32,373 nt of DNA from Vampirovibrio chlorellavorus (GCA_001858525.1 LAPX01000015.1:1-32373), one strand, 5' to 3'; shown: positions 1,321 through 24,507, counted from the first letter of the stretch. The notes: generated from the letters alone by a model not told the origin. Numbers and translations: made by a program.

Positions 1321-4300
1321 ATGGATTTTATTAACACCTCTATGAAAAGCGTGGCCTTTGGTTTTTCCCGGTTATTAGCTCGCTCTATATCACTCCTGAT
1401 GGTAACCAGCCTTATTACCGGCTGGATACCCAGCAGCTTTGCCGTGAAAGAGGAAGTAGTCCCCACCACACAGTCCGCCCCGGAAGTCGATACGGAACTT
1501 GAGAATCTGTGGAACCAGAGTATCGATGATCCTGCCCCGCAGAAACGTATGAAACCGGTTGTGCCGTCTACCTCTATCGCGCCCCAAAAACCAGCAACCA
1601 AAACGCAGCAAAAGCCTATCGCCACAACCCCCTCCAAACAATCGGCCCCGCCTATAAAAGAGACCAAACCCAAGACCAAGCCAGAGCCTGCCAAGCCCAT
1701 TACCCCGTCCAGTGAATTGGCAAAAACGCCAGCGCCTAAAGCCGAAACAACGAAAAAAGTAGTGAAAACGCCGCCTGTAGAGCCTTTAAAACCGGAATCT
1801 CCAAAAATAAAATCAAAAATCAAGCCAGAACCGCCGTTAGCCCTTCAAAAATCCGAAAAAGCGCAACCGGCTTCTGCAAAAGAGAAACTAAATGCCCCCA
1901 AGGTTAGCCCCTCGGTTCCTACTGACGCTAATGCACCCGCTGTAACCAAGATCAACGAACAGACACCATCTGACACCGTGTCTGCTCCCGCTCAAGCCAA
2001 AACGAAAAAAGCGCCAAAACCCAAAAAAGTGAAGCCCCAAAAGGCCAAGAAGGTCAAAGAAAAGCCCGCCAAAGCACAGCCCGAACCGCAAAAAGAATCG
2101 ACCGTTGAGAAAGCACTTCCAGAGAGTGCGAAGCGCCAACAGCCTCCTCCAAAAGTAAAGCCGGTGAAAGTTGAGGCCAAGCCGGAAGCGGTGCCTTATG
2201 CAAAACCGAAGACATCCAAGGCAGTTACACCTCCCACAGTGCCTGCTGAAGCGATGACGCCATCGGTTAAAGCGGAAAAAGCGAAGCCCAAAAAAGAGAA
2301 ACAGGCTCGTAAAGAGCGCCAACCCAAGCAGAAAAAAGAATGGGCCCCTATTGTAGAGACCAACCCGCAGGCTATAAAGGTTCAGCCAACGTCTGAAGCG
2401 AAAGGCATCCTGAATCCGACCGATCAGGCGCCTCAAGCACCGGAAGCCAAGCCTCTCATGACGCCGACCGTAACAGAGAGTAAGTCTGTTAAAACCAAGC
2501 AAAAGAAAACCAAACCGGCCAAAATCAAGCCGGAAAAAGTGAAACCCGTCGAGTCTAAACCCGCAAAAACTAAACCTGAAGTGGCCAAACCCGCGGCAAT
2601 CAAGCCCGAAGAACTCAAACCGGAAGTCGCCAACCCCAAGGCTGAAGCGGAAAAACCTGAGCTGGCAAAACCGGAAGCACCCAAACGCCAGAAAAAACAG
2701 AAGCCTGAAAAAGTGAAACAGGCCAAGGTGAAGCCGGAAAAAACCAAACCGGTTGAATCGAAACCCGCAGAAACCAAATCGGCAGAAGCAAAGCCTGAAA
2801 AACTCAAACAGGAAGTCGCCAAACCGAAGGCTGAAGCGGAAAAGCCGGAGCTGGTGAAAGCAGAAGCGCCCAAACGCCAGAAAAAACAGAAGCCTGAAAA
2901 AGTGAAACAGGCCAAGGTAAAGTCGGAAAAAAACAAACCGGTCGAGTCGAAACCCGCAGAAATTAGACCTGAAGTTGCCAAACCCGCGGCAATCAAGCCC
3001 GAAAAACTCAAACCGGAAGTCGCCAACCCCAAGGCCGAAGCGGAAAAACCTGAGCTGGCCAAGCCGGAAGCGCCCAAGCGCCAGAAAAAGCAGAAGCCTG
3101 AAAAAGTGAAACAGGCCAAGGTAAAGCCGGAAAAAACCAAACCGGTTGAATCGAAACCTGCAGAAATTAGACCTGAAGTTGCCAAACCCGCGGCAATCAA
3201 GCCTGAAAAACTCAAACCGGAAGTCGCCAACCCCAAGGCCGAAGCGGAAAAGCCGGAGCTGGTGAAAGCAGAAGCGCCCAAACGCCAGAAAAAACAGAAG
3301 CCTGAAAAAGTGAAACAGGCCAAGGTGAAGCCGGAAAAAACCAAACCGGTTGAATCGAAACCCGCAGAATCCAAATCGGCAGAAGCAAAGCCTGAAAAAC
3401 TCAAGCCCGAAGTCGCCAAACCCAAGGCCGAAGCGGAAAAACCTGAGCTGGCAAAACCGGTAGCACCCAAACGCCAGAAAAAGCAGAAGCCTGAAAAAGT
3501 GAAACAGGCCAAGGCGATGCCAGAAAAAGCCCAGCCGGTCGAGTCGAAACCCGCAGAAACGAAACAGGCAGACGCAAAGCCTGAAAAACTCAAGCCGGAA
3601 GTAGTAAAACCGAAGGCTGAAGCGGAAAAGTCCGAGCTGACCCAGCCCGAACCACCAAAACCGACTTTGGAACCGAAGGAAACACCGGCTAGCACTGCGC
3701 AGCTTATTCCGGAAGTGCCAAAACCCCCGACTCAATCCGAAGTGGCCCCTCCCTTAGGACTCTCCAAATCCACCCCGGTGATTGAGTCCTTGACGATGCC
3801 CGCCGAAGTGACCCAATTGGCCGCAGAGTACCTCAGAAGCCTGCAACAATGGCAACAATCCAGACAAAAAGAAAGTCTTGAGCCAGTCCTGAACAAAGGT
3901 CAGGAGGCTGCAAGGTCTATCCTTCAGCACGCAGACACCCTGACCGATGAGGATTTCGAGGTCATCAAGAAATCCATGCCCGGCTACCTCATCTTGCACC
4001 AGGAAATTGTGGTGGCAGGACCGGATCCGGCCTTTTTCCTGACCCTGGCTACGCAAAAGGGTAAACCTGCCGATTTGGCTTTTTTCAAACTGATGAATCA
4101 AACCCTGAATGGCTACTGGCCCAGCACTATGGAAGAATTGGACGACCTGAGCGGCTGCACCCGCTTTGGCAGCGGAGAACTGGTGCGTCTGTATGGTGAG
4201 TGGACCGCCTTCAAGCGGCAGTTTCCCACGGGTTATACCAAAGCGTTGCAAGATCCCAACCTGTTGCTGTTGAGCGATTTGGAAGATCAGCTGCTGAACA

Positions 4301-4485
4301 GTACCGCCGCTTGCGAAGGCCCTGAAAGCGTTCAGCAGGAGTTGCAAAGCTTTGTGCAAAACTTCCCTCGCTCTCCCCTGACGCCCAAAATCAAGCAACG
4401 CTTGCTGGATTTACAACAAAAGAAGCTGGATATGAGCTTTAATCAAGGGGTCAGACACCGCTTGAAAGAAGAGACCGGAGAATAA
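1321..4485 (+). CDS. Large Lys/Pro-rich repeat protein with signal peptide
   Basis: A 1054-residue protein with three parts. Residues 1-41 form a signal peptide or anchor: a basic start, a hydrophobic core, and a likely cut after SSFA. A second ATG at 1342 (MKSVAFGF) could be the true start; neither has a good ribosome binding site. Residues about 45-820 are almost entirely Lys, Pro, Ala and Glu, including imperfect tandem repeats at about 399-780 built round PKRQKKQKPEKVKQAK. Residues about 824-1054 form a folded, mostly helical domain with only two cysteines (about 946 and 998). The layout suggests an extended, highly basic rod linking the membrane or an exported N-terminus to a C-terminal domain, as in TonB-like or wall-spanning proteins, but no TonB domain is visible. 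It could also be surface-exposed. Function is unknown. Long open frames on the opposite strand are by-products of this composition. Confidence 0.75.
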   Translation: MDFINTSMKSVAFGFSRLLARSISLLMVTSLITGWIPSSFAVKEEVVPTTQSAPEVDTELENLWNQSIDDPAPQKRMKPVVPSTSIAPQKPATKTQQKPIATTPSKQSAPPIKETKPKTKPEPAKPITPSSELAKTPAPKAETTKKVVKTPPVEPLKPESPKIKSKIKPEPPLALQKSEKAQPASAKEKLNAPKVSPSVPTDANAPAVTKINEQTPSDTVSAPAQAKTKKAPKPKKVKPQKAKKVKEKPAKAQPEPQKESTVEKALPESAKRQQPPPKVKPVKVEAKPEAVPYAKPKTSKAVTPPTVPAEAMTPSVKAEKAKPKKEKQARKERQPKQKKEWAPIVETNPQAIKVQPTSEAKGILNPTDQAPQAPEAKPLMTPTVTESKSVKTKQKKTKPAKIKPEKVKPVESKPAKTKPEVAKPAAIKPEELKPEVANPKAEAEKPELAKPEAPKRQKKQKPEKVKQAKVKPEKTKPVESKPAETKSAEAKPEKLKQEVAKPKAEAEKPELVKAEAPKRQKKQKPEKVKQAKVKSEKNKPVESKPAEIRPEVAKPAAIKPEKLKPEVANPKAEAEKPELAKPEAPKRQKKQKPEKVKQAKVKPEKTKPVESKPAEIRPEVAKPAAIKPEKLKPEVANPKAEAEKPELVKAEAPKRQKKQKPEKVKQAKVKPEKTKPVESKPAESKSAEAKPEKLKPEVAKPKAEAEKPELAKPVAPKRQKKQKPEKVKQAKAMPEKAQPVESKPAETKQADAKPEKLKPEVVKPKAEAEKSELTQPEPPKPTLEPKETPASTAQLIPEVPKPPTQSEVAPPLGLSKSTPVIESLTMPAEVTQLAAEYLRSLQQWQQSRQKESLEPVLNKGQEAARSILQHADTLTDEDFEVIKKSMPGYLILHQEIVVAGPDPAFFLTLATQKGKPADLAFFKLMNQTLNGYWPSTMEELDDLSGCTRFGSGELVRLYGEWTAFKRQFPTGYTKALQDPNLLLLSDLEDQLLNSTAACEGPESVQQELQSFVQNFPRSPLTPKIKQRLLDLQQKKLDMSFNQGVRHRLKEETGE
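2515..3660 (+). repeat. Imperfect in-frame tandem repeats, 189/204 bp units
   Basis: The anchor PKRQKKQKPEKVKQAK begins at 2680, 2869, 3073, 3277 and 3466. Spacings are therefore 189, 204, 204 and 189 bases, or 63 and 68 residues. The two unit lengths differ by a five-residue indel around the VAKPAAIKPE segment. Partial, decayed units flank both ends. The copies are close at nucleotide level, so recent duplication or ongoing recombination, and copy-number variation between strains, are likely. Confidence 0.9.
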
Positions 4486-12972: not shown

Positions 12973-14406
12973 ATGCTGAGTGAAAATCCAGGGAAGAAAA
13001 TGAACGAATCCAATAAGCAGAAAATCACAAACAATGAAAGCATTGAGATTGACGACCTCAAAGCTTCTTACTGGGCTTCTGTCGCCGCGTCTGCCCATAA
13101 TACCTTTTCAGAGCCCAGCACCTTCCAGCTTTCGCCCAATGAAGCCCAAAAATCACTCAGCGCGAAATCTCACTTTGTCCATCATAAAACGTCACAGTGG
13201 CTTTTGGCATCAAAGCCCAAAGCATTTGAATCGGTAAATCAAGATTTACCCAGTCAACCGACTTCTCCGATTGAGGGCTGTAATGGAGCGCTTCAAACTC
13301 ACCTGCCAGACATTTATCGTGTCACTCTAAGGTCGGATAAGGAGACAAAAATATCCAGTGATCCGTTGCTCAGTTTTTCAGGACCGTCTAAAAGCTTTAA
13401 GGCCTCAAACTCTGCAGATAATGGTCAGGGGGATAGCCTGAACTTGGCCAACGAACCATTGCATTGGGTTGATGAATTGGATAGTTTTAATCAGGACTTT
13501 TCAGACAACGATTTTTTACTGGTTAAAGAGCACTGGACCTCAAAAATTTTGAACAATCCCAAAATGGTTGCAGCTGTTATTGGTCTATGTCTTTTGGCCT
13601 CATCAGTTTACGCAGGCCTGGGTTATTGGTGGCTTACCTCTTCTAATTTATCGCATGCCGCGGAACCTGAAAATGGAAAGCCAACCACGCAGTCAAGTAG
13701 TCCCGATCTTTTCAATATTAAAGCTTTGCAAAAACAAGTGCCTTCTGCGCAGCCCACGAACAAGATCAATCCCAACGAGCGGCTGATTGCCCAAGCAGAA
13801 CCTGTGGCAACTTTTGCTATGGCAGATTCAGTGGAGGCTATTCCGGAACTGAGTGGACGACCGGATCCATTTTCTCCGTTAATCCAAGAAACCAATGGTT
13901 CTTTTATAGCCCCGACTCAAAATCAGGATGCCTTGACCGGGGTCCAGTACACTGGGTTTATTGGGGGTGTAAATAGCAAAAATAAAATTGCCATTATCAA
14001 GGTCGCTGATGCCAATCCCGCGGTGAGTCCAAAGACACTATTCAAAAAGGCTGGCGAATCATTTTACATTAATGGCGAACGTATTTATTTATTCGCAATT
14101 GGAAAAACCAGCCTGAGTTTACAGCTCAAAAATGAAAACCGATCCTTGGCGCTCAATCCTTATAAGATCATTGTGAATAATACAGCCACAACCAATGCCG
14201 CCGGTACCACTGGAAGCACTGGCGCTAGTCCCGCTGCTAGTGGTTCTAATTCAAGTAGCATCGTCAGTAGCGGTAGTGCATCATCTTCTATCGTGAGTTC
14301 TTCAACTGGGGAAAGTTCTAGCGCGAATGCCACAAATAATACTTCCACGAGTAGTAATTCTGCCAGGAATTCTGGTAATGGTATTAACATCAATTTGGAA
14401 GAATGA
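12973..14406 (+). CDS. Bitopic protein with PilP-like periplasmic domain
   Basis: A 477-residue protein. Residues 1-195 are polar and probably cytoplasmic, residues about 198-222 form one transmembrane helix, and the rest should face the periplasm. The segment GRPDPFSPL (about 295-303) and the following domain LTGVQYTGFIGG...ESFYINGERIYLFAIGKTSLSLQL (321-385) follow the pattern of PilP, the pilot-like protein that docks on the N0 domain of the PilQ secretin. The C-terminus (about 405-470) is a Ser/Ala/Thr/Asn-rich tail. Ordinary PilP is a short lipoprotein of about 175 residues with no cytoplasmic domain, so this version is unusual. The start may be the ATG at 12973 or the one at 13000, which has AGGGAAGAA just before it. 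It lies 104 bases before the first secretin gene. Confidence 0.7.
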   Translation: MLSENPGKKMNESNKQKITNNESIEIDDLKASYWASVAASAHNTFSEPSTFQLSPNEAQKSLSAKSHFVHHKTSQWLLASKPKAFESVNQDLPSQPTSPIEGCNGALQTHLPDIYRVTLRSDKETKISSDPLLSFSGPSKSFKASNSADNGQGDSLNLANEPLHWVDELDSFNQDFSDNDFLLVKEHWTSKILNNPKMVAAVIGLCLLASSVYAGLGYWWLTSSNLSHAAEPENGKPTTQSSSPDLFNIKALQKQVPSAQPTNKINPNERLIAQAEPVATFAMADSVEAIPELSGRPDPFSPLIQETNGSFIAPTQNQDALTGVQYTGFIGGVNSKNKIAIIKVADANPAVSPKTLFKKAGESFYINGERIYLFAIGKTSLSLQLKNENRSLALNPYKIIVNNTATTNAAGTTGSTGASPAASGSNSSSIVSSGSASSSIVSSSTGESSSANATNNTSTSSNSARNSGNGININLEE

Positions 14407-14510
14407 TTTTGCTTTACGGCAGTGAACCCTGTTTTGAGTGATTTTAGTCCGGAAAAGTTTCGTTTTAAAAATTTGATTCAATAGAGTTGAGAGATGAGAG
14501 GCAACCAACC

Positions 14511-16397
14511 ATGAAGAAAACGCTGGCACCATTGTTGGTCGCAATGATGACCCTCCAGGCGGTATCGCCATTGCCAACCATGGCTCAATCTCGTTTGGCC
14601 ACAGGCTCTCTAGACAATACGGCCCTGCTGGATGAAACACTGAGTGTACCCAACGGTAATCGGCGGATCACTTTAAGCGTTGATAATCAAAATATTCGAA
14701 ATGTCCTGTATGCCTTGGCTGATACTGGCAAGTTCAATTTGGTTATGGACGATTCGGTGACTGGAAATGTCACGATTGATTTATCCAAGGTGAGTATTAA
14801 CCAGGCGCTGCAATCGATTGCGTCATTGGGCAATTTGAAAATTTTAAAACAAAGTGGCAATATTTATCTGGTCATGTCCCGAGCCACTGCAGAGGCCAAA
14901 GGGCTGGATCGACAACTTTCCAAAGTCATTCCCCTGCATTACACCAACGCCACGCGGGTGGCCAGTATGCTCAACAATTCCCTGTTAGCCGGATCCGCTT
15001 CAGGGAGTGGATCTTCCGCAGGGGGAGCGAGCGGGACTGCCACGCAATCGGCCACTGCTGAAGCCAGGACAAACAGTATTATTTTGGTCGGCACAGCTCA
15101 AAAAATTGCATTGGCTGAAGCGGCCATCGCCAAAATGGATGTTCCTCGCCAAAGTAAAACATTTTACCTCAGTCACTCCAATGCTTTGGATGTTGCTACC
15201 TTGTTAGCGGGTAGTGCATTTAATGATGGGGTTGCCTCATTTTCAGTCGGAGCCGCTGGTGGGGGGGCTGCCGCTGGTGGTGCAGGCACCACTCCTACAA
15301 CGCCATCTTCCCTGAGAGTAGAGCGCCAGGATGTGCAAGAAGGCAGTGGTATTAATATTTTTGGTAGCAGTGGGAATGGGGTAACTTCTGGTCTTTCGAG
15401 TGCCGTAACACTCAGAGGATTTGTCAAAACGCAGGATAACGCCTCAGTATCGCCTGAAAGCGCCCTGATTATTCCGGATTCGCGTCAAAACGCCATCACG
15501 ATTATGGGTACCGCTGAGCAAATTGCTTTGGCCGAATCGCTTATTCCGACTTTTGATGCCCAACTGCCCCAGGTGTCTATCGAGGCTTCTTTGGTAGAAA
15601 TTACGGATACCAACAGTAAACAACTGGGAACCCGCTGGGGGATTGCTGATGGCAAACTGCAATTTGGTTTTAACAATCAGCCCCTCAGCTCAGTTTCGGG
15701 AACAGGGCTGATTGGCCTTTCCACTATTACTGATATTACAGATGTGAATGCTTTAGCCCGATCCGGAATTGCCTTTAATACCAGTCCCGCCGTAACTCGC
15801 CCGGATTATGCATTTCAAATCAGAAACCTGATTTCTCAAAACAAAGCAAAAGTGCTGGCCAATCCAACGGTGGTTGCGACTCACGATACCGAATCGATTA
15901 TCAGTATTGTGGATGAGATTGTGCGGCGGGTTGTGACCACGGTCGATGAAAGTGGATTTGCGACCCAAACTGTCGAAATTGGGGAAGCGGGTATTGTCAT
16001 GGATATCCTGCCCAAAGTGGGCGAAGACGGTACTGTCAGTATGCGTGTTCGTCCCTCGGTGACCAGTGTGCTTCGTGAAGAAACGGTTTTGGGTAACCTG
16101 GTTACCTTATTGCAGAAGCGAGATTTACTGGCTCAAAATGTCCGGCTAAAAGACGGTGAAACGCTGGTTATTGGTGGCTTGATTCAGGAGCGACAAACCG
16201 AGCGGATGGACAAATTGCCCGGTGTGGCAGAACTGCCTATTGTGGGTGCCATGTTTAGAGCGTCTCAAAGAACCGGAGTTCGTTCCGAACTGGTCATGAT
16301 GATTACCCCACATATTATCAGCAACACAAAGCTAACACCGGTCATTACCACTACGACCGAAGCAGGTACCCTGAGCAGCATGGCCGGAGGGAAGTAA
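14511..16397 (+). CDS. Secretin, PilQ/GspD type (first of tandem pair)
   Basis: A 628-residue outer-membrane secretin subunit. The signal peptide is residues 1-25 (cut after TMA). An STN/N0-like domain lies at about 51-122, and N-domain repeats at about 138-211 and 216-365. The secretin barrel domain is about 370-602, with NKAKVLANPTVVA, SIVDEI, VEIGEAGIVMDILP and the closing motif DGETLVIGGLIQ, then LPGVAELPIVGAMF. Two Gly/Ser/Ala-rich loops (161-176 and 247-259) are inserted in the N domains. Secretins form a ring pore for type IV pili, type II secretion or competence. The start is the ATG at 14511 with AGAGG nine bases before it; a TTG farther upstream (14487) is unlikely. The second secretin follows after three bases. 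No pilM, pilN or pilO genes are in the window. Confidence 0.9.
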   Translation: MKKTLAPLLVAMMTLQAVSPLPTMAQSRLATGSLDNTALLDETLSVPNGNRRITLSVDNQNIRNVLYALADTGKFNLVMDDSVTGNVTIDLSKVSINQALQSIASLGNLKILKQSGNIYLVMSRATAEAKGLDRQLSKVIPLHYTNATRVASMLNNSLLAGSASGSGSSAGGASGTATQSATAEARTNSIILVGTAQKIALAEAAIAKMDVPRQSKTFYLSHSNALDVATLLAGSAFNDGVASFSVGAAGGGAAAGGAGTTPTTPSSLRVERQDVQEGSGINIFGSSGNGVTSGLSSAVTLRGFVKTQDNASVSPESALIIPDSRQNAITIMGTAEQIALAESLIPTFDAQLPQVSIEASLVEITDTNSKQLGTRWGIADGKLQFGFNNQPLSSVSGTGLIGLSTITDITDVNALARSGIAFNTSPAVTRPDYAFQIRNLISQNKAKVLANPTVVATHDTESIISIVDEIVRRVVTTVDESGFATQTVEIGEAGIVMDILPKVGEDGTVSMRVRPSVTSVLREETVLGNLVTLLQKRDLLAQNVRLKDGETLVIGGLIQERQTERMDKLPGVAELPIVGAMFRASQRTGVRSELVMMITPHIISNTKLTPVITTTTEAGTLSSMAGGK

Positions 16398-16400
16398 ACC

Positions 16401-18728
16401 ATGAGAAACTTATTTCCAACCCTGGAAAAAATAGTCTCCAAGCAACGGATTGAGAAGAGTTTATCTCTTGCCCTCAGCGCTGGACTCATTTTCTCGCAAA
16501 GTGGATTATTGGCCGTGGCGGCTCCAACCAGCACCATTACCGGGGATATTCGGGTAACTGTTAATCCGACCAATATTAAGGCGAATATGCCGATTCCGGG
16601 AGGGCAACAGCTGGTGACCATGTCCTTTCATGGGATTTCCATTCAGGATGCCTTGAGAGCGCTGGCCCAAAAGGGAGCATTTAACGTTCTGATTGATGAA
16701 TCGGTGGTTGGTGAAATCAGTGTCGATCTGAATAATGTCACCATTCAGGATGCTCTGGAATCCATTAAATCTTATGGAAATCTGGTTTACTCCATTCAAG
16801 GGAACAACCTTACCGTTGCAAATGCCAATTCACCCAAAGGGCAAAGTTTCAAAAAAATGGCGACCCGGATTTTCCCCCTTAAAAATGCCAATGCCAGTCT
16901 GGTAGCCAGTATTTTAAACAATACCCTGTTTGCAGATTCAGCAGCTTCCGGTGCGAGTGGCGGCAGCGCAGGTGCAGGTGCCGGTGCGGGCAGTACAGGA
17001 CCGGTCACCCCAGATTTTCATACCAATAGCATTATCGTGGTTGGACAACCGCAAGATATTCAGGCCGTTGAAAAACATCTGGAAATTCTGGATCAGGCAC
17101 GACAAAGCAAAACCTGGCGGTTGAGTCATGCCAATGCTTTGGATGTAGCCACCATTTTATCCTCTAGTTTGTTTAATGAGGGTGTTCCTGTGCTGGCCGG
17201 TAGCGCCGGTGGTGGTGGCGGTGGGGCCGGAGGCGTTGGACAAAGTCCGGCACAGGTTCGGGTTGTCGCGGAAAATGTGCAAGAAGGTCAAGGTGCCAAT
17301 CAGTCCTCTCAAAGTGGCGGTAGCTCGGGTGGCCAAACCAGTTTGACCAATACCATTAACTTGCGCACTCGGGTTAAAGCTGTCGAAACCATTAGCATCG
17401 CCCCGAATGGACCTGTCATCCTGCCGGATACCCGACTCAACACTGTGACGCTTATGGGAACTGCGGAGCAAATTGCCATGGTGGAAGCCATGATTCCCAT
17501 GTTGGACCGTAAAATTCCTCAGGTTGTATTGGAAACTGCTTTAATCGAACTTAATGAAACCGGTATTCGGGAATTGGGTTTTAATTTTGGCTTGAACGTC
17601 GGTGGATTTAAACTCGGCTCAAATAATACATCGACCACTAATGGCAGGGGAAGTGCGATTGGGGTGGGCACTAGCAGTACCAGTCCGAGGGAAAGTCTTC
17701 TGCAATTTACGACCAGTCCTGCCAGGCGGATGAAGGATTTTTACTATCAAATTAACGCCTTGGTCAATCAAAATAAGGCCAAGTTATTGGCCAACCCCAG
17801 CATTATTACGGCGAGCAACGATGAAGCTGTGGTTAGTATTGTGGATGAAATTATACGTTCTGTGGAAATTACCCAAAGTGCCCTGAGTGCCCCAACGGCC
17901 ACTGTGAATATTGGCGAAGCAGGCATTGTACTGAACATGTTGCCCGTGGTTGGGGCGGATAATACCGTTTCCTTGAAAGTCCGTCCTGTAATTAGCACTG
18001 TGGCCGAAACCAAAACAGGCTTAAGCGGTACTACCATCACGCTGCTGTCAAAGCGAGAGGTTTTAACGCAAAACGTAAGTTTACAGGATGGTGAAACTTT
18101 TGTTCTGGGCGGACTGGTTCAAAATACGAATAAAGAAGCCGTTTTTCGGACGCCAGGTTTGTCCAACTTGCCTATTGTGGGTGCTTTGGCTCGAAATTCC
18201 ACACTGAACAAGAAGCGGACAGAATTGGTGGTCTTGGTCACGCCGCATATTTTAAGAGAAGATGGCGATATGACCAGCGGCAATAACAGCCACAGTCCTG
18301 GCGCTGGCATTAATCCGGCGACCCTCAGTCGCACTGGGAACGAGCCCAATATTCTGCCTGTTTCTCTACAAGGGGCAAACCATGCCAATGCCTTGCCCGC
18401 CATGGAGCAGGTTAGAGTTATTAACAGCACCACCAATGGCGTTGATCCCCTGGAACGTAAAAGTATGAGCAAGGCTGCCCCACGCCCATCCGGCGCCTTG
18501 TTACCGGATGAACTGATGCCTGCGCCGACCACAACCCAAAAGGCGAGCCCCAGCAGCAGTGCCATGGTTCCGGTCAGCTATCAACCGGCTCAATCAAATA
18601 CGGTTTATAAACCCACTTCGACACCCGCTGCCAGCCGAAGCACGCCAAACCATCCGGTTGTGCAGGCGCCTGCCCCAGTGGACACTTCCGATGCTGCCAT
18701 TCGGGCCATTCTGGACAAGTTCAAGTAA
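16401..18728 (+). CDS. Secretin, PilQ/GspD type with C-terminal tail (second of pair)
   Basis: A 775-residue paralogue of the preceding protein. The signal peptide ends near 40 (AVA). An STN/N0-like domain is at about 70-140, N-domain repeats at about 154-235 and 237-385, and the secretin barrel at about 385-620, with NKAKLLANPSIIT, SIVDEI, VNIGEAGIVLNMLP and DGETFVLGGLVQ. The same two loop sites carry Gly-rich inserts (183-199 and 267-280). Beyond the barrel is a tail of about 150 residues rich in Pro, Ser, Ala and Thr that the first secretin lacks. The start is supported by GGAGG ten bases before the ATG, inside the end of the first gene, so the two are one operon and probably coupled. A terminator follows. 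Whether the proteins form one mixed ring or two separate pores cannot be seen. Confidence 0.9.
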   Translation: MRNLFPTLEKIVSKQRIEKSLSLALSAGLIFSQSGLLAVAAPTSTITGDIRVTVNPTNIKANMPIPGGQQLVTMSFHGISIQDALRALAQKGAFNVLIDESVVGEISVDLNNVTIQDALESIKSYGNLVYSIQGNNLTVANANSPKGQSFKKMATRIFPLKNANASLVASILNNTLFADSAASGASGGSAGAGAGAGSTGPVTPDFHTNSIIVVGQPQDIQAVEKHLEILDQARQSKTWRLSHANALDVATILSSSLFNEGVPVLAGSAGGGGGGAGGVGQSPAQVRVVAENVQEGQGANQSSQSGGSSGGQTSLTNTINLRTRVKAVETISIAPNGPVILPDTRLNTVTLMGTAEQIAMVEAMIPMLDRKIPQVVLETALIELNETGIRELGFNFGLNVGGFKLGSNNTSTTNGRGSAIGVGTSSTSPRESLLQFTTSPARRMKDFYYQINALVNQNKAKLLANPSIITASNDEAVVSIVDEIIRSVEITQSALSAPTATVNIGEAGIVLNMLPVVGADNTVSLKVRPVISTVAETKTGLSGTTITLLSKREVLTQNVSLQDGETFVLGGLVQNTNKEAVFRTPGLSNLPIVGALARNSTLNKKRTELVVLVTPHILREDGDMTSGNNSHSPGAGINPATLSRTGNEPNILPVSLQGANHANALPAMEQVRVINSTTNGVDPLERKSMSKAAPRPSGALLPDELMPAPTTTQKASPSSSAMVPVSYQPAQSNTVYKPTSTPAASRSTPNHPVVQAPAPVDTSDAAIRAILDKFK

Positions 18729-20916: not shown

Positions 20917-22338
20917 GTGAAGCCTGTGACAGTCATTACGCATCAAAAATCCTTATTGGCCGATCGTTTGGCCGACTATACCAGCCAATTGAGTTTTGAA
21001 AAGCTTCCGGGGGAAGCGGTTCTGGAAGCCAAGCGCCGGGTCATTGACGCACTGGGTTGCGCGATAGGGGCTTACGATGCCAAACCGGCCCAGATCGCCC
21101 GCAAGGTAGCCCAACTCTCCAGCAACCCCGATGGGGCCACGGTGTTGACCACCGGACACAAAACCTCACCGGATTTGGCCGCCTTTGCCAGCGGGGTGAT
21201 GATGCGCTATTTGGACTTCAACGACACTTACCTGTCCAAGGAACCCGCTCACCCCAGTGACAACATTGCCGCGGTGCTGGCCGTGGCTGAAGCGGAGAAA
21301 AAAAGCGGGAAAGACTTGATTACGGCCATTGTCCTGGCCTACGAAATTCAGTGTCGCCTGTGCGATGCGGCCAGCATTCGCTCCCGAGGCTGGGATCACG
21401 TTACCTATGGCGCCTTTTCCGCCGGATTGGCCGCTGGAAAGCTGTATGGCCTGAGCAAACAGCAACTGGTGCATGTGCAAGGGCTGGCCGCCACCCCCAA
21501 CAACGCCATGCGTCAAACCCGGGTGGGTGAACTCTCTCACTGGAAAGGCTGCGCTTTCGCCAACGCGTCTCGCAATGCGGTGTTTGCCGCCACCCTGGCC
21601 AAACACGGCATGACCGGGCCTTCGGAAATTTTTGAAGGCGAAATGGGCTTCTGGGCCCAAGTGTCCGGCCCGTTTGAACTGGCCCCCATGGGCGGGGAAG
21701 AGGGGAACCCGCACTTTATGATCAACCAGACGTATGTGAAGCACTTCCCGGCAGAATATCACTCCCAAAGCGCCATTGAGGCCGCCCTGGAGCTGCGGAC
21801 CCAAATTGGGGTGGATAATATCGATCAAAAAATCGAATCCATTACCATTGAGAGCTTTGACGCCGCAGTGGACATTATTGCCGGGTTTGTGGAGCATTGG
21901 GCCCCCAAAAGCCGGGAAACCGCCGATCACAGTATGCCCTATTGCGTCTCGGCAGCCCTCATTGACGGGGACATCACCCTGGATACCTTCAGCGATACCC
22001 GCATTCAGGAGCCCAAGCTGCGGGCCCTGATTCAGAAGGTCAAAGTCAACCGAAACGCCGAAATGACGGCTGGTTACCCGGAAGGTATTCCCAACCTGCT
22101 GGTGATCAAGACCACGGATGGGAAAGAGTTCAGCAAAAAAATCGCTTACCCCTTGGGGCACAACCGCAATCCCATGAACGATGTGGATATTGAGAAGAAA
22201 TTCCGCTCGCTGGCCCTGCGCTGGATGAGTGAGGCCAATGCCGATCGCATCCTGAAAGCCCTGTGGAGTCTGGAAACATGCACCGACATTTCACAGATCA
22301 TGGCCTTGTTTGCAGAAGCCATTGCCGCTGGTAAGTAA
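20917..22338 (+). CDS. prpD: 2-methylcitrate dehydratase, MmgE/PrpD family
   Basis: A 473-residue enzyme that dehydrates 2-methylcitrate to 2-methyl-cis-aconitate in the propionyl-CoA-oxidising 2-methylcitrate cycle. Family markers are MRYLDFNDTY at 96-105, AHPSDN at 111-116, RGWDHVTYGAFSAGLAAGKL, the long LSHWKGCAFANASRNAVFAA segment, and KHFPAEYHSQSAIEAALELR. The start is GTG at 20917 with a weak GA-rich site before it; a second GTG at 20926 is also possible. The length fits both PrpD and the related Bacillus MmgE. It is the first recognised gene of a prpD-prpB-prpC run, with prpB 24 bases downstream. The adjoining prpB and prpC make the assignment firm. No prpE (propionyl-CoA synthetase) or prpR regulator is in view. 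Confidence 0.93.
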   Translation: MKPVTVITHQKSLLADRLADYTSQLSFEKLPGEAVLEAKRRVIDALGCAIGAYDAKPAQIARKVAQLSSNPDGATVLTTGHKTSPDLAAFASGVMMRYLDFNDTYLSKEPAHPSDNIAAVLAVAEAEKKSGKDLITAIVLAYEIQCRLCDAASIRSRGWDHVTYGAFSAGLAAGKLYGLSKQQLVHVQGLAATPNNAMRQTRVGELSHWKGCAFANASRNAVFAATLAKHGMTGPSEIFEGEMGFWAQVSGPFELAPMGGEEGNPHFMINQTYVKHFPAEYHSQSAIEAALELRTQIGVDNIDQKIESITIESFDAAVDIIAGFVEHWAPKSRETADHSMPYCVSAALIDGDITLDTFSDTRIQEPKLRALIQKVKVNRNAEMTAGYPEGIPNLLVIKTTDGKEFSKKIAYPLGHNRNPMNDVDIEKKFRSLALRWMSEANADRILKALWSLETCTDISQIMALFAEAIAAGK

Positions 22339-22362
22339 GCGTTTACATATAAAGGAAAAGCC

Positions 22363-23274
22363 GTGAGCGAAGCCCTGCTAAATCCGCAAACCAATAAGCC
22401 CGCCCAGTTGCGAGCCTTGATGAAGCAGGGCACCATCGCCTTGCCGGGTGCTTTTAATGCCATTTCCGCTAAAATCATTGAATCAGTGGGCTTTCCCGGG
22501 GTGTATGTCTCCGGTGCGGGGCTGTCCAATGGGGTGGGCGGCTACCCGGACATCGGTTTTATGACGGCCACGGAAATGGCCACCCAGGCTGGCTATATCG
22601 CCCGATCCGTCAATATTCCAGCCATCGCCGATGCGGATAATGGCTACGGGGAGGCCATCAACGTATTCCGAACTGTGCAAGAATACGAGCGACAAGGGCT
22701 GAGCGGCCTGCATATCGAGGATCAAATCATCCCCAAACGGTGCGGACACCTGGACGGCAAGCAGGTTATTTCTGTGGATAACATGCGGGAAAAAATTGCC
22801 GCAGCCCGGGAAGCCCGGATCAATCCTGACTTTTTGCTGATTGCCCGTGTGGATTCCAAGGCGGTCAATGGGTTCGACGATGCCGTGAAGCGGGCCAACG
22901 CCTATATGGAGGCCGGAGCGGACATGATTTTCCCGGAGGCCCTGACCACCCGGGAAGAATTCGCAGAATTTGCCCGTCAGGTCAAAGCTCCCTTGCTGGC
23001 CAACATGACCGAATTCGGTAAAACCCCCTATTTAAGCCTCTCCGAATTTGAGACCCTGGGTTATACAATTGTCATCTTTCCAATGACGGCCTTTCGCATT
23101 ATGATGAAGGCGGTAGAGGATGGCATGCGTCAACTTCAGCAAGAAGGCACTCAAAGTAACCTGTTGCCACAGATGACCACCCGGCAGGATTTATACCAGC
23201 TCATTCACTACCAGGATTATGAACGGCTGGATTCCAGTTTGGCTACCCAGTTTTCGTCGAACACCCACCGTTAA
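22363..23274 (+). CDS. prpB: 2-methylisocitrate lyase
   Basis: A 303-residue member of the isocitrate lyase/PEP mutase superfamily. It cleaves 2-methylisocitrate to pyruvate and succinate, the last step of the 2-methylcitrate cycle. Visible motifs are the substrate entry loop YVSGAGLSNGVGGYPDIG at 48-65, the metal-binding IADADNGYG at 88-96, HIEDQ at 117-121, and the catalytic PKRCGH at 124-129 with Cys127. The family form here is typical of PrpB rather than isocitrate lyase, which is longer. The start is GTG at 22363 with AAGGAA close upstream. It lies in one transcript with prpD and probably prpC. Confidence 0.95.
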   Translation: MSEALLNPQTNKPAQLRALMKQGTIALPGAFNAISAKIIESVGFPGVYVSGAGLSNGVGGYPDIGFMTATEMATQAGYIARSVNIPAIADADNGYGEAINVFRTVQEYERQGLSGLHIEDQIIPKRCGHLDGKQVISVDNMREKIAAAREARINPDFLLIARVDSKAVNGFDDAVKRANAYMEAGADMIFPEALTTREEFAEFARQVKAPLLANMTEFGKTPYLSLSEFETLGYTIVIFPMTAFRIMMKAVEDGMRQLQQEGTQSNLLPQMTTRQDLYQLIHYQDYERLDSSLATQFSSNTHR

Positions 23275-23301
23275 TCGTCCAACGCATCAGAACTCAGTCG
23301 C

Positions 23302-23319
23302 CCGGATGAGCTTATCCGG
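23302..23319. promoter_or_regulatory. Inverted repeat ahead of prpC
   Basis: CCGGAT and ATCCGG form perfect 6-base arms around GAGCTT in the 105-base gap between prpB and prpC. A TACAAT box follows at 23332-23337, without a good -35. It may be an RNA hairpin or an operator for separate control of prpC; the evidence is only the symmetry. Confidence 0.35.
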
Positions 23320-23379
23320 AGACGGTTGTAGTACAATCCTCACAAGCATTTAAAGTCATCTGGTAAAAAGGGGACGACT

Positions 23380-24507
23380 ATGAAAACGGCAGAGTATAGC
23401 CCTGGGCTTGAAGGTATTATCGCCGGAACCACCACCATTTCGCACGTCAATCCAGATTTGTGCAGTTTAATGTACCGTGGTTACGATATTCGTGATCTGG
23501 TGAAGAATTCCACCTTTGAGGAAGTGGCCTTTTTGCTGCTGAAGGGCCATTTGCCCACCCAAAGCGAGTACGACGCATTCTGCGCCGAGCTGAAGCAGGA
23601 ACGAGATTTGCCCGCCGTGGTGATCGACAGTTTCAAGACCTTCCCGGCCAACAGCATCCCCATGGACATGTTGCGCACGGGCGCGGCCTTACTGGCTCTG
23701 CATGATCCGGATCGGGAAGACAACAGCCACGAGGCCAACTTACGCAAGGCTACTCGCCTGATTGCCAAGTTCCCGGCCTTGATCGCCTACTCTTATCGTA
23801 TTAACCGCGGTCAGGAAATCGTCAAACCGGATAACAGTCTGGGGCATGGGGAAAACTTCCTGTACATGCTGCAAGGCAAAAAGCCGGATGCCTACATTGC
23901 CCACGTGTTCGACAGTTCTCTGATCTGTTACGCCGATCACGGCTTTAACGCCTCGACATTCGCCAGCCGGGTAACGGTTTCCACCTTGTCCGATATCTAT
24001 TCCGGTCTGGTCGCAGCCATTGGCGCTTTAAAAGGCCCGTTGCACGGTGGGGCCAATGAAGAAGCCATGAAAATGTTGCAAGAAGTGGGCACCCCCGAGA
24101 ATGCCGAAGCTTGGGTCATCGACGCCCTGGCCACCAAGAAAAAAATCATGGGCTTTGGCCACCGGGAATACAAAAATGGCGATCCCAGAGCGTTCATTCT
24201 CACCGAAATGGGTGCCGAGATGAGCGAGAAACTGGGCGATACCCGCTGGTACAAGACGGCCTCCATTGTGGAGTCAGTCATGCGCCGGGAGAAAAACATT
24301 GTGCCTAACGTGGATTTCCCCACCTCTTATATTTACTACTTAATGGGCCTGCCCATTGAGATTTATACCCCCATCTTCGCCTTGGCCCGGGTTGCTGGCT
24401 GGACAGCGCACATGATTGAGCAGCTGGATAACAACCGCCTGATTCGTCCCAAGGCATTGTATGAAGGGCCGGATCACCTGGAATTTATGGCCAGAGCGCA
24501 ACGCTAA
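23380..24507 (+). CDS. prpC: 2-methylcitrate synthase / citrate synthase family
   Basis: A 375-residue type II-like short citrate synthase. It condenses propionyl-CoA with oxaloacetate to 2-methylcitrate, and such enzymes often also accept acetyl-CoA. The catalytic residues are present: His222 in GPLHGGANEEAM, His261 in MGFGHREYKNGDPRA, and Asp312 in PNVDFPTSYIYYLMGLP. His187 in ADHGFNAST is also conserved. AGGGGA before the ATG at 23380 supports the start. The gene follows prpB by 105 bases and ends in a strong terminator, so it closes the prp set. It could serve as an ordinary citrate synthase, but context favours prpC. Confidence 0.92.
   Translation: MKTAEYSPGLEGIIAGTTTISHVNPDLCSLMYRGYDIRDLVKNSTFEEVAFLLLKGHLPTQSEYDAFCAELKQERDLPAVVIDSFKTFPANSIPMDMLRTGAALLALHDPDREDNSHEANLRKATRLIAKFPALIAYSYRINRGQEIVKPDNSLGHGENFLYMLQGKKPDAYIAHVFDSSLICYADHGFNASTFASRVTVSTLSDIYSGLVAAIGALKGPLHGGANEEAMKMLQEVGTPENAEAWVIDALATKKKIMGFGHREYKNGDPRAFILTEMGAEMSEKLGDTRWYKTASIVESVMRREKNIVPNVDFPTSYIYYLMGLPIEIYTPIFALARVAGWTAHMIEQLDNNRLIRPKALYEGPDHLEFMARAQR

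Follow-up and report, generated by a model that had tools for sequence, protein, structure and literature searches.

The closest described relatives of the locus analyzed here are the type IVa pilus secretin PilQ, encoded in pilMNOPQ loci, and the type II secretin GspD, encoded next to gspC. In these systems, PilP and GspC connect the platform in the inner membrane with the secretin N0 domains. Secretin rings are, to our knowledge, treated as homo-oligomers, and we know of no natural ring of two full-length secretin paralogues; the literature searched contained no such ring either. The use of two secretin-family genes in one system has been described for rhizobial type III secretion, with RhcC1 and RhcC2 (PMC3459982, PMC4311626). 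One of these two is truncated, and the other came from a Tad locus. In contrast, the two genes of Vampirovibrio chlorellavorus described here, secretins A and B, are both full length and sister paralogues, and no two-secretin arrangement matching theirs was found in the literature searched, which agrees with the first-pass annotation of this DNA, in which the pair had been set apart from known loci. The genome paper of V. chlorellavorus describes a full pilus gene set and leaves pilQ unmentioned in its main text; the A/B pair was not reported in the literature searched, and Table S3 of the genome paper may list these genes (PMC4451040).

Secretins A and B, together with the upstream gene P3, lie on one contig (C9) of the 3.03-Mb genome, which is assembled in 28 contigs; this entire contig of 32,373 bp is the window referred to below (Table 1). 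The Vampirovibrionales are a branch of non-photosynthetic cyanobacterial relatives, with an algal predator among their members. For comparison at the level of the order, 18 genomes were used, 10 of family f1, 4 of f2, and 4 of f3 (f1, f2, f3, f4, and f6 are working labels for families, not published names).

Table 1. Position of the secretin pair, its upstream gene, and their parts in the window
Feature	Position	Strand	Remarks
P3, PilP/GspC-like inner-membrane clamp gene	12973..14406	+	477 aa; predicted helix 196-223; no Pfam/NCBIfam match
P3 HR-like domain, residues 324-394	13942..14154	+	seven strands, pLDDT about 76-91; Foldseek
Secretin A	14511..16397	+	628 aa, short tail; Pfam Secretin, Secretin_N, STN
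Secretin A pore core	15828..16319	+	PF00263, residues 440-603; same place in genome search
A/B junction	16386..16403	+	GGAGGG 16386-16391, TAA of A 16395-16397, ATG of B 16401-16403; read directly
Secretin B	16401..18728	+	775 aa, long tail; Pfam Secretin, Secretin_N, STN
Secretin B pore core	17757..18257	+	PF00263, residues 453-619; same place in genome search
Secretin B tail	18252..18725	+	158 aa, Pro/Ser/Thr-rich, probably disordered
Secretin B C-terminal helix, residues 764-774	18690..18722	+	within motif DTSDAAIRAILDKFK; predicted model

A and B share one domain order, an STN/N0 domain followed by two Secretin_N domains and the Secretin core (Pfam Secretin E-values of 5.6e-34 for A and 3.1e-35 for B). 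With 117.6 (A) and 121.7 bits (B) against PF00263, for which the curated cut-off is 27.5, both are members of the secretin superfamily, and they align with 42% identity over 566 aa (E = 7e-129). Furthermore, loops rich in Gly, Ser, and Ala are inserted at two matching sites (residues ~160-180 and ~245-262 in A, ~178-200 and ~262-276 in B). Thus, the two full-length secretins of like domain order with two common glycine-rich loop sites, as first read from the DNA, were recovered by profile search and alignment. The Pro/Ser-rich tail ascribed to B alone is real as well: the pore core is followed by 26 residues in A and by 158 in B, of which 33% are Pro, Ser, or Thr. Among the orthologues, tails are 60 to 207 residues long in B and about 18 to 50 in A, and the pattern of a short-tailed A and a long-tailed B holds in all genomes with the pair.

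The full-length model of B has a mean pLDDT of 43 and was relied on solely for the order of the N domains and for the helix at the C terminus. In this model, the tail is predicted with a pLDDT of <50 at residues 620 to 759, and the end helix that follows the disordered linker reaches 72 to 76. Ends resembling this helix are present in 8 of the 10 f1 genomes and missing in the other two (G012 and G013) and in f3. The tail with its end helix is reminiscent of an S-domain, whose pilotin-binding helix carries the signature Hyd-X-Ala-Phe (PMC6532946). However, the tail of B ends with DTSDAAIRAILDKFK and lacks this signature, and A has no such helix. A classical pilotin S-domain therefore survives as a suggestion, and since the helix is also missing in f3, G012, and G013, we assign no role to it.

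Closer inspection of the gene starts revealed a Shine-Dalgarno-like GAGAGG at 14496-14501, 9 nt 5' of the ATG of A; because this site precedes the ATG, the TTG at 14487, which the list of open reading frames gives as the start of A, is less likely. Only 3 bp separate the stop codon of A from the start codon of B, and the GGAGGG site of B is located inside the last codons of A. Across the genomes in which the junction could be read, it ranges from an overlap of a few bases to 23 bp, with the start of B being approximate in G005, G006, G010, and G011. From this arrangement, the two genes look translationally coupled. Promoter signals were not above chance (8 found versus 8.3 expected).

P3 has no family match in Pfam or NCBIfam. 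It is predicted to consist of a probably cytoplasmic N-terminal part, one transmembrane helix, low-complexity linkers, and an HR-like domain at the C terminus, and it carries a motif of the RxDPFxP type. In Foldseek, the HR-like domain best matched PilP (2y4y) and GspC (3oss), with a probability of 1.00 and a TM-score by target of 0.65 to 0.69; the corresponding E-values are weak (0.03 to 0.04) because most of the P3 model is disordered. The sequence profile of P3 against GspC is weak as well (E = 0.96). A better-scoring match of the profile to DotF/IcmG (E = 0.0016) covers a stretch N-terminal to the HR domain and was not read as homology. The predicted structure of P3 thus combines an HR-type beta fold at the C terminus with an inner-membrane anchor, as expected for a clamp of the PilP/GspC kind.

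How does the locus compare with those of PilQ and GspD? It shares with the type IVa system the secretin core and N domains, a PilP-like neighbor, and relatives of PilM, PilN, PilO, PilB, and PilC in the genome. Unlike a PilQ locus, it has two secretins, the pilM and pilN genes are fused and unlinked, and P3 has a transmembrane helix and no obvious lipobox. With the type II system it has in common the order of a GspC-like gene followed by a secretin, with P3 as a transmembrane-anchored HR protein, and the PilM-PilN fusion is similar in layout to GspL; it differs in having two secretins, no gsp operon, and no Hyd-X-Ala-Phe pilotin motif. The NCBIfam models are likewise divided, PilQ (TIGR02515) being the best match of A (205.9 bits; B, 174.7 bits) and GspD (TIGR02517) that of B (192.8 bits; A, 184.3 bits), with all scores below the respective cut-offs of 284.35 and 351.35. 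The most likely role of A and B is that of the outer channel in a machine of the pilus or secretion type.

A Tad origin (RcpA/CpaC) is excluded by tree position and gene context: the genome has five secretin genes, namely, A, B, secS on contig C23, and one in each of two Tad-type clusters (C26 and C23), and A and B stand apart from the two Tad secretins in the tree and have no Tad genes next to them.

The cassette P3-A-B is present in 10/10 f1 and 4/4 f3 genomes, as judged by searching the 18 genomes of the order and inspecting the neighborhoods; B is split by a contig break in G016 and G017, with both fragments found. P3 adjoins A and B wherever the locus is intact. Neither secretin was lost in any of these 14 genomes. 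The genes flanking the cassette are conserved inside the genus and different beyond. In the 4 f2 genomes, an adjacent secretin pair was not seen, and the best match there is a lone secretin accompanied by GspE and GspF; two of the four also have Tad-like secretins, and a cluster of the pilMNOPQ type is present in G003. In the tree built from A, B, and secS, the 14 A orthologues form one clade (93/88), B a second (100/98), and secS a separate third (100/100). The separate clades of A and B point to a single duplication older than the split of f1 and f3, and independent duplications in f1 and f3 were ruled out by the AU test (p = 0.009 and 0.010). When the tree is extended to other lineages, A and B are still separate and group with single secretins of f4 and one sericytochromatia-like sequence; a long-branched entry that then falls beside B leaves the deeper branching order unsure. 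The gene upstream of the f4 single secretin resembles a TPR protein. A glmS gene lies by the cassette in G009 and by the f4 single secretin, in different order and orientation, and was discarded as a sign of synteny.

Larger distances were saturated for dN/dS, and only close pairs are informative; between these, the ratio is 0.04 to 0.06 for A and 0.075 to 0.10 for B. Together with the full-length reading frames, these values show, at the level of codon substitutions, that both genes are under purifying selection, and decay of either copy to a pseudogene can be discarded. Loss or decay of one copy in close relatives, which the first-pass annotation had named as evidence against its reading, was thus encountered in none of the 14 genomes. 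In sum, the tandem pair of A and B is genuine, of great age, and faithfully retained in one branch of the Vampirovibrionales (families f1 and f3).

The same annotation had noticed that pilMNO do not accompany the secretins. This is true for the immediate neighborhood, where PilP-like P3 is the only member of the pilMNOP set, but at the scale of the genome the idea that pilus partners are lacking does not hold. A PilM-PilN fusion gene followed by pilO is located on contig C28 and a PilB-PilC pair on C23 near 10 kb, both unlinked to the cassette and co-occurring with it. Orthologues of the PilM-PilN fusion were found in 14/14 genomes with the pair (E < 1e-54), and f2 has weak matches to the PilM region or none. 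An orthologue of the motor, PilB2, is present in 13 of the 14 (53 to 100% identity), the exception being G007, which is 81% complete; in f2, matches to PilB2 are limited to the secS-linked motor and PilT-like genes. A second PilMN-like and PilO-like pair is located on C26, and two PilT-like genes are present in the genome. Two different genes resembling PilM-PilN fusions, each followed by a PilO-like gene, are present in one genome (L067:7873-10287 and L092:6774-9197), and neither adjoins a secretin. The secretin SecS (locus L016) also follows a PilP-like gene and, like B, is long tailed with a possible end helix. Unlike A/B, it is a single secretin of its own clade, with a separate set of linked GspE, GspF, and PilP-like genes, and occurs across f1, f2, and f3. 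The simplest assignment of the co-occurring genes is to two type IV filament machines that probably operate in parallel, their genes scattered, with the A/B pair belonging to one of them. From co-occurrence across one phylogenetic contrast, we infer this assignment and that PilMNO and PilBC serve the A/B channel; P3 would serve it as well. As a side note, the prepilin-type N_methyl signature was found at 43 places (40 over the cut-off), many of them in small clusters, a large repertoire for a genome of 3 Mb.

In our model, A and B would be obligate partners that together make up the outer-membrane channel of a single machine of the type IV pilus/type II secretion class, with A as the conserved pore-core subunit and B as a second, tailed subunit. 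P3 would act as the clamp that connects the inner-membrane platform with the secretin N0 domains, a function for which PilW of Thermus offers a parallel (PMC13039148). The platform, with its genes at two other loci, would consist of the PilM-PilN fusion, PilO, and PilC with the PilB motor; PilB may power the assembly of a filament that exits via the channel, and the C-terminal helix of B may serve to attract a factor for targeting or anchoring. We put the probability of this model at just under one half (about 0.48). The apparent coupling and the lasting co-retention moderately favor an obligate partnership. It is possible, at somewhat less than even odds, that A and B are mixed or alternate in a single ring, an obligate hetero-oligomer in which B alone provides the long targeting or anchoring tails; a mixed ring was also among the options of the first-pass annotation. 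Mixed secretin rings are physically possible, since full-length and truncated PulD make mixed multimers in vitro (PMC4604470). The model is weakened by the low identity of A and B inside one genome (23 to 43%), by the missing pilotin signature, and by the lack of the end helix in f3, G012, and G013.

The strongest competitor is a pair of separate homomeric channels on one inner-membrane platform, through which filaments or cargo of two kinds would leave the cell; the tail would then specialize B. Both proteins have complete N domains and pore cores, the genome offers 43 prepilin-type places and two PilT-like genes, and the two secretins evolve at unequal rates, with 54 pore-core columns conserved at ≥90% in A and 24 in B. 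However, there is a single P3 gene for two secretins, and in Thermus a single PilQ suffices for two types of pilus (PMC13039148), so a second filament needs no second secretin. Furthermore, joint use in one channel is made somewhat likelier than use in two by the apparent translational coupling, the clamp gene common to both secretins, and the fact that neither was lost. We therefore mildly favor a shared ring over two rings and regard two channels as somewhat less likely. The lower conservation of its core and its long, variable, disordered tail could also mean that B has chiefly an accessory role and forms no channel itself, surrounding or underlying the A ring as a secretin-like collar or anchor; this is improbable, since B retains a complete pore domain with a score equal to that of A and is under purifying selection. 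Least probable is an ordinary tandem duplication retained for dosage or by chance without division of labor, for although tandem secretin duplications recur in the class (recently and more than once, in Tad-like form and in Obscuribacter-like genomes), A and B have been distinct since before the f1/f3 split, have only 23 to 43% identity inside one genome, and differ consistently in their tails with no loss in any genome examined.

Searches of the class and phylum with the A profile had suggested that the pair is unique in the phylum, but this was overturned when 15 more genomes from the class and phylum were searched for secretins in general and three f4 genomes proved to have tandem Tad-like secretins (L166:6617-11387 in G094, L167:6738-11491 in G088, and L168:6284-11358 in G065), with no obvious Tad cluster. 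These Obscuribacter-like tandems also consist of two adjacent full-length secretins. In contrast to A/B, they belong to the Tad-like lineage and, according to the tree, arose by repeated, recent, and separate duplications; related genomes have a single copy, and in G098 the copies are dispersed. A and B are set apart from them by age, fixation, tail asymmetry, and the linked clamp gene. As fixed, ancient, and apparently coupled full-length paralogues, they offer a natural case for studying whether a ring can be assembled from two gene products and why this would be kept, and the probable presence of two parallel machines with scattered genes bears on the annotation of attachment and secretion apparatuses in the Vampirovibrionales.

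Two further features of the window are mentioned here. At 1321-4485 (+), a 1,054-aa open frame without a Pfam match has a signal-like start and a long part rich in Lys, Pro, Glu, and Ala; it contains 189-bp tandem repeats at 2602-3629, and the AT skew is strong (0.55 in 1501-3000). Downstream of the cassette, at 20917-24507 (+), genes of the MmgE/PrpD, PEP-mutase/ICL, and citrate synthase families follow each other and resemble a methylcitrate (propionate) pathway; they stay beside the cassette within the genus.
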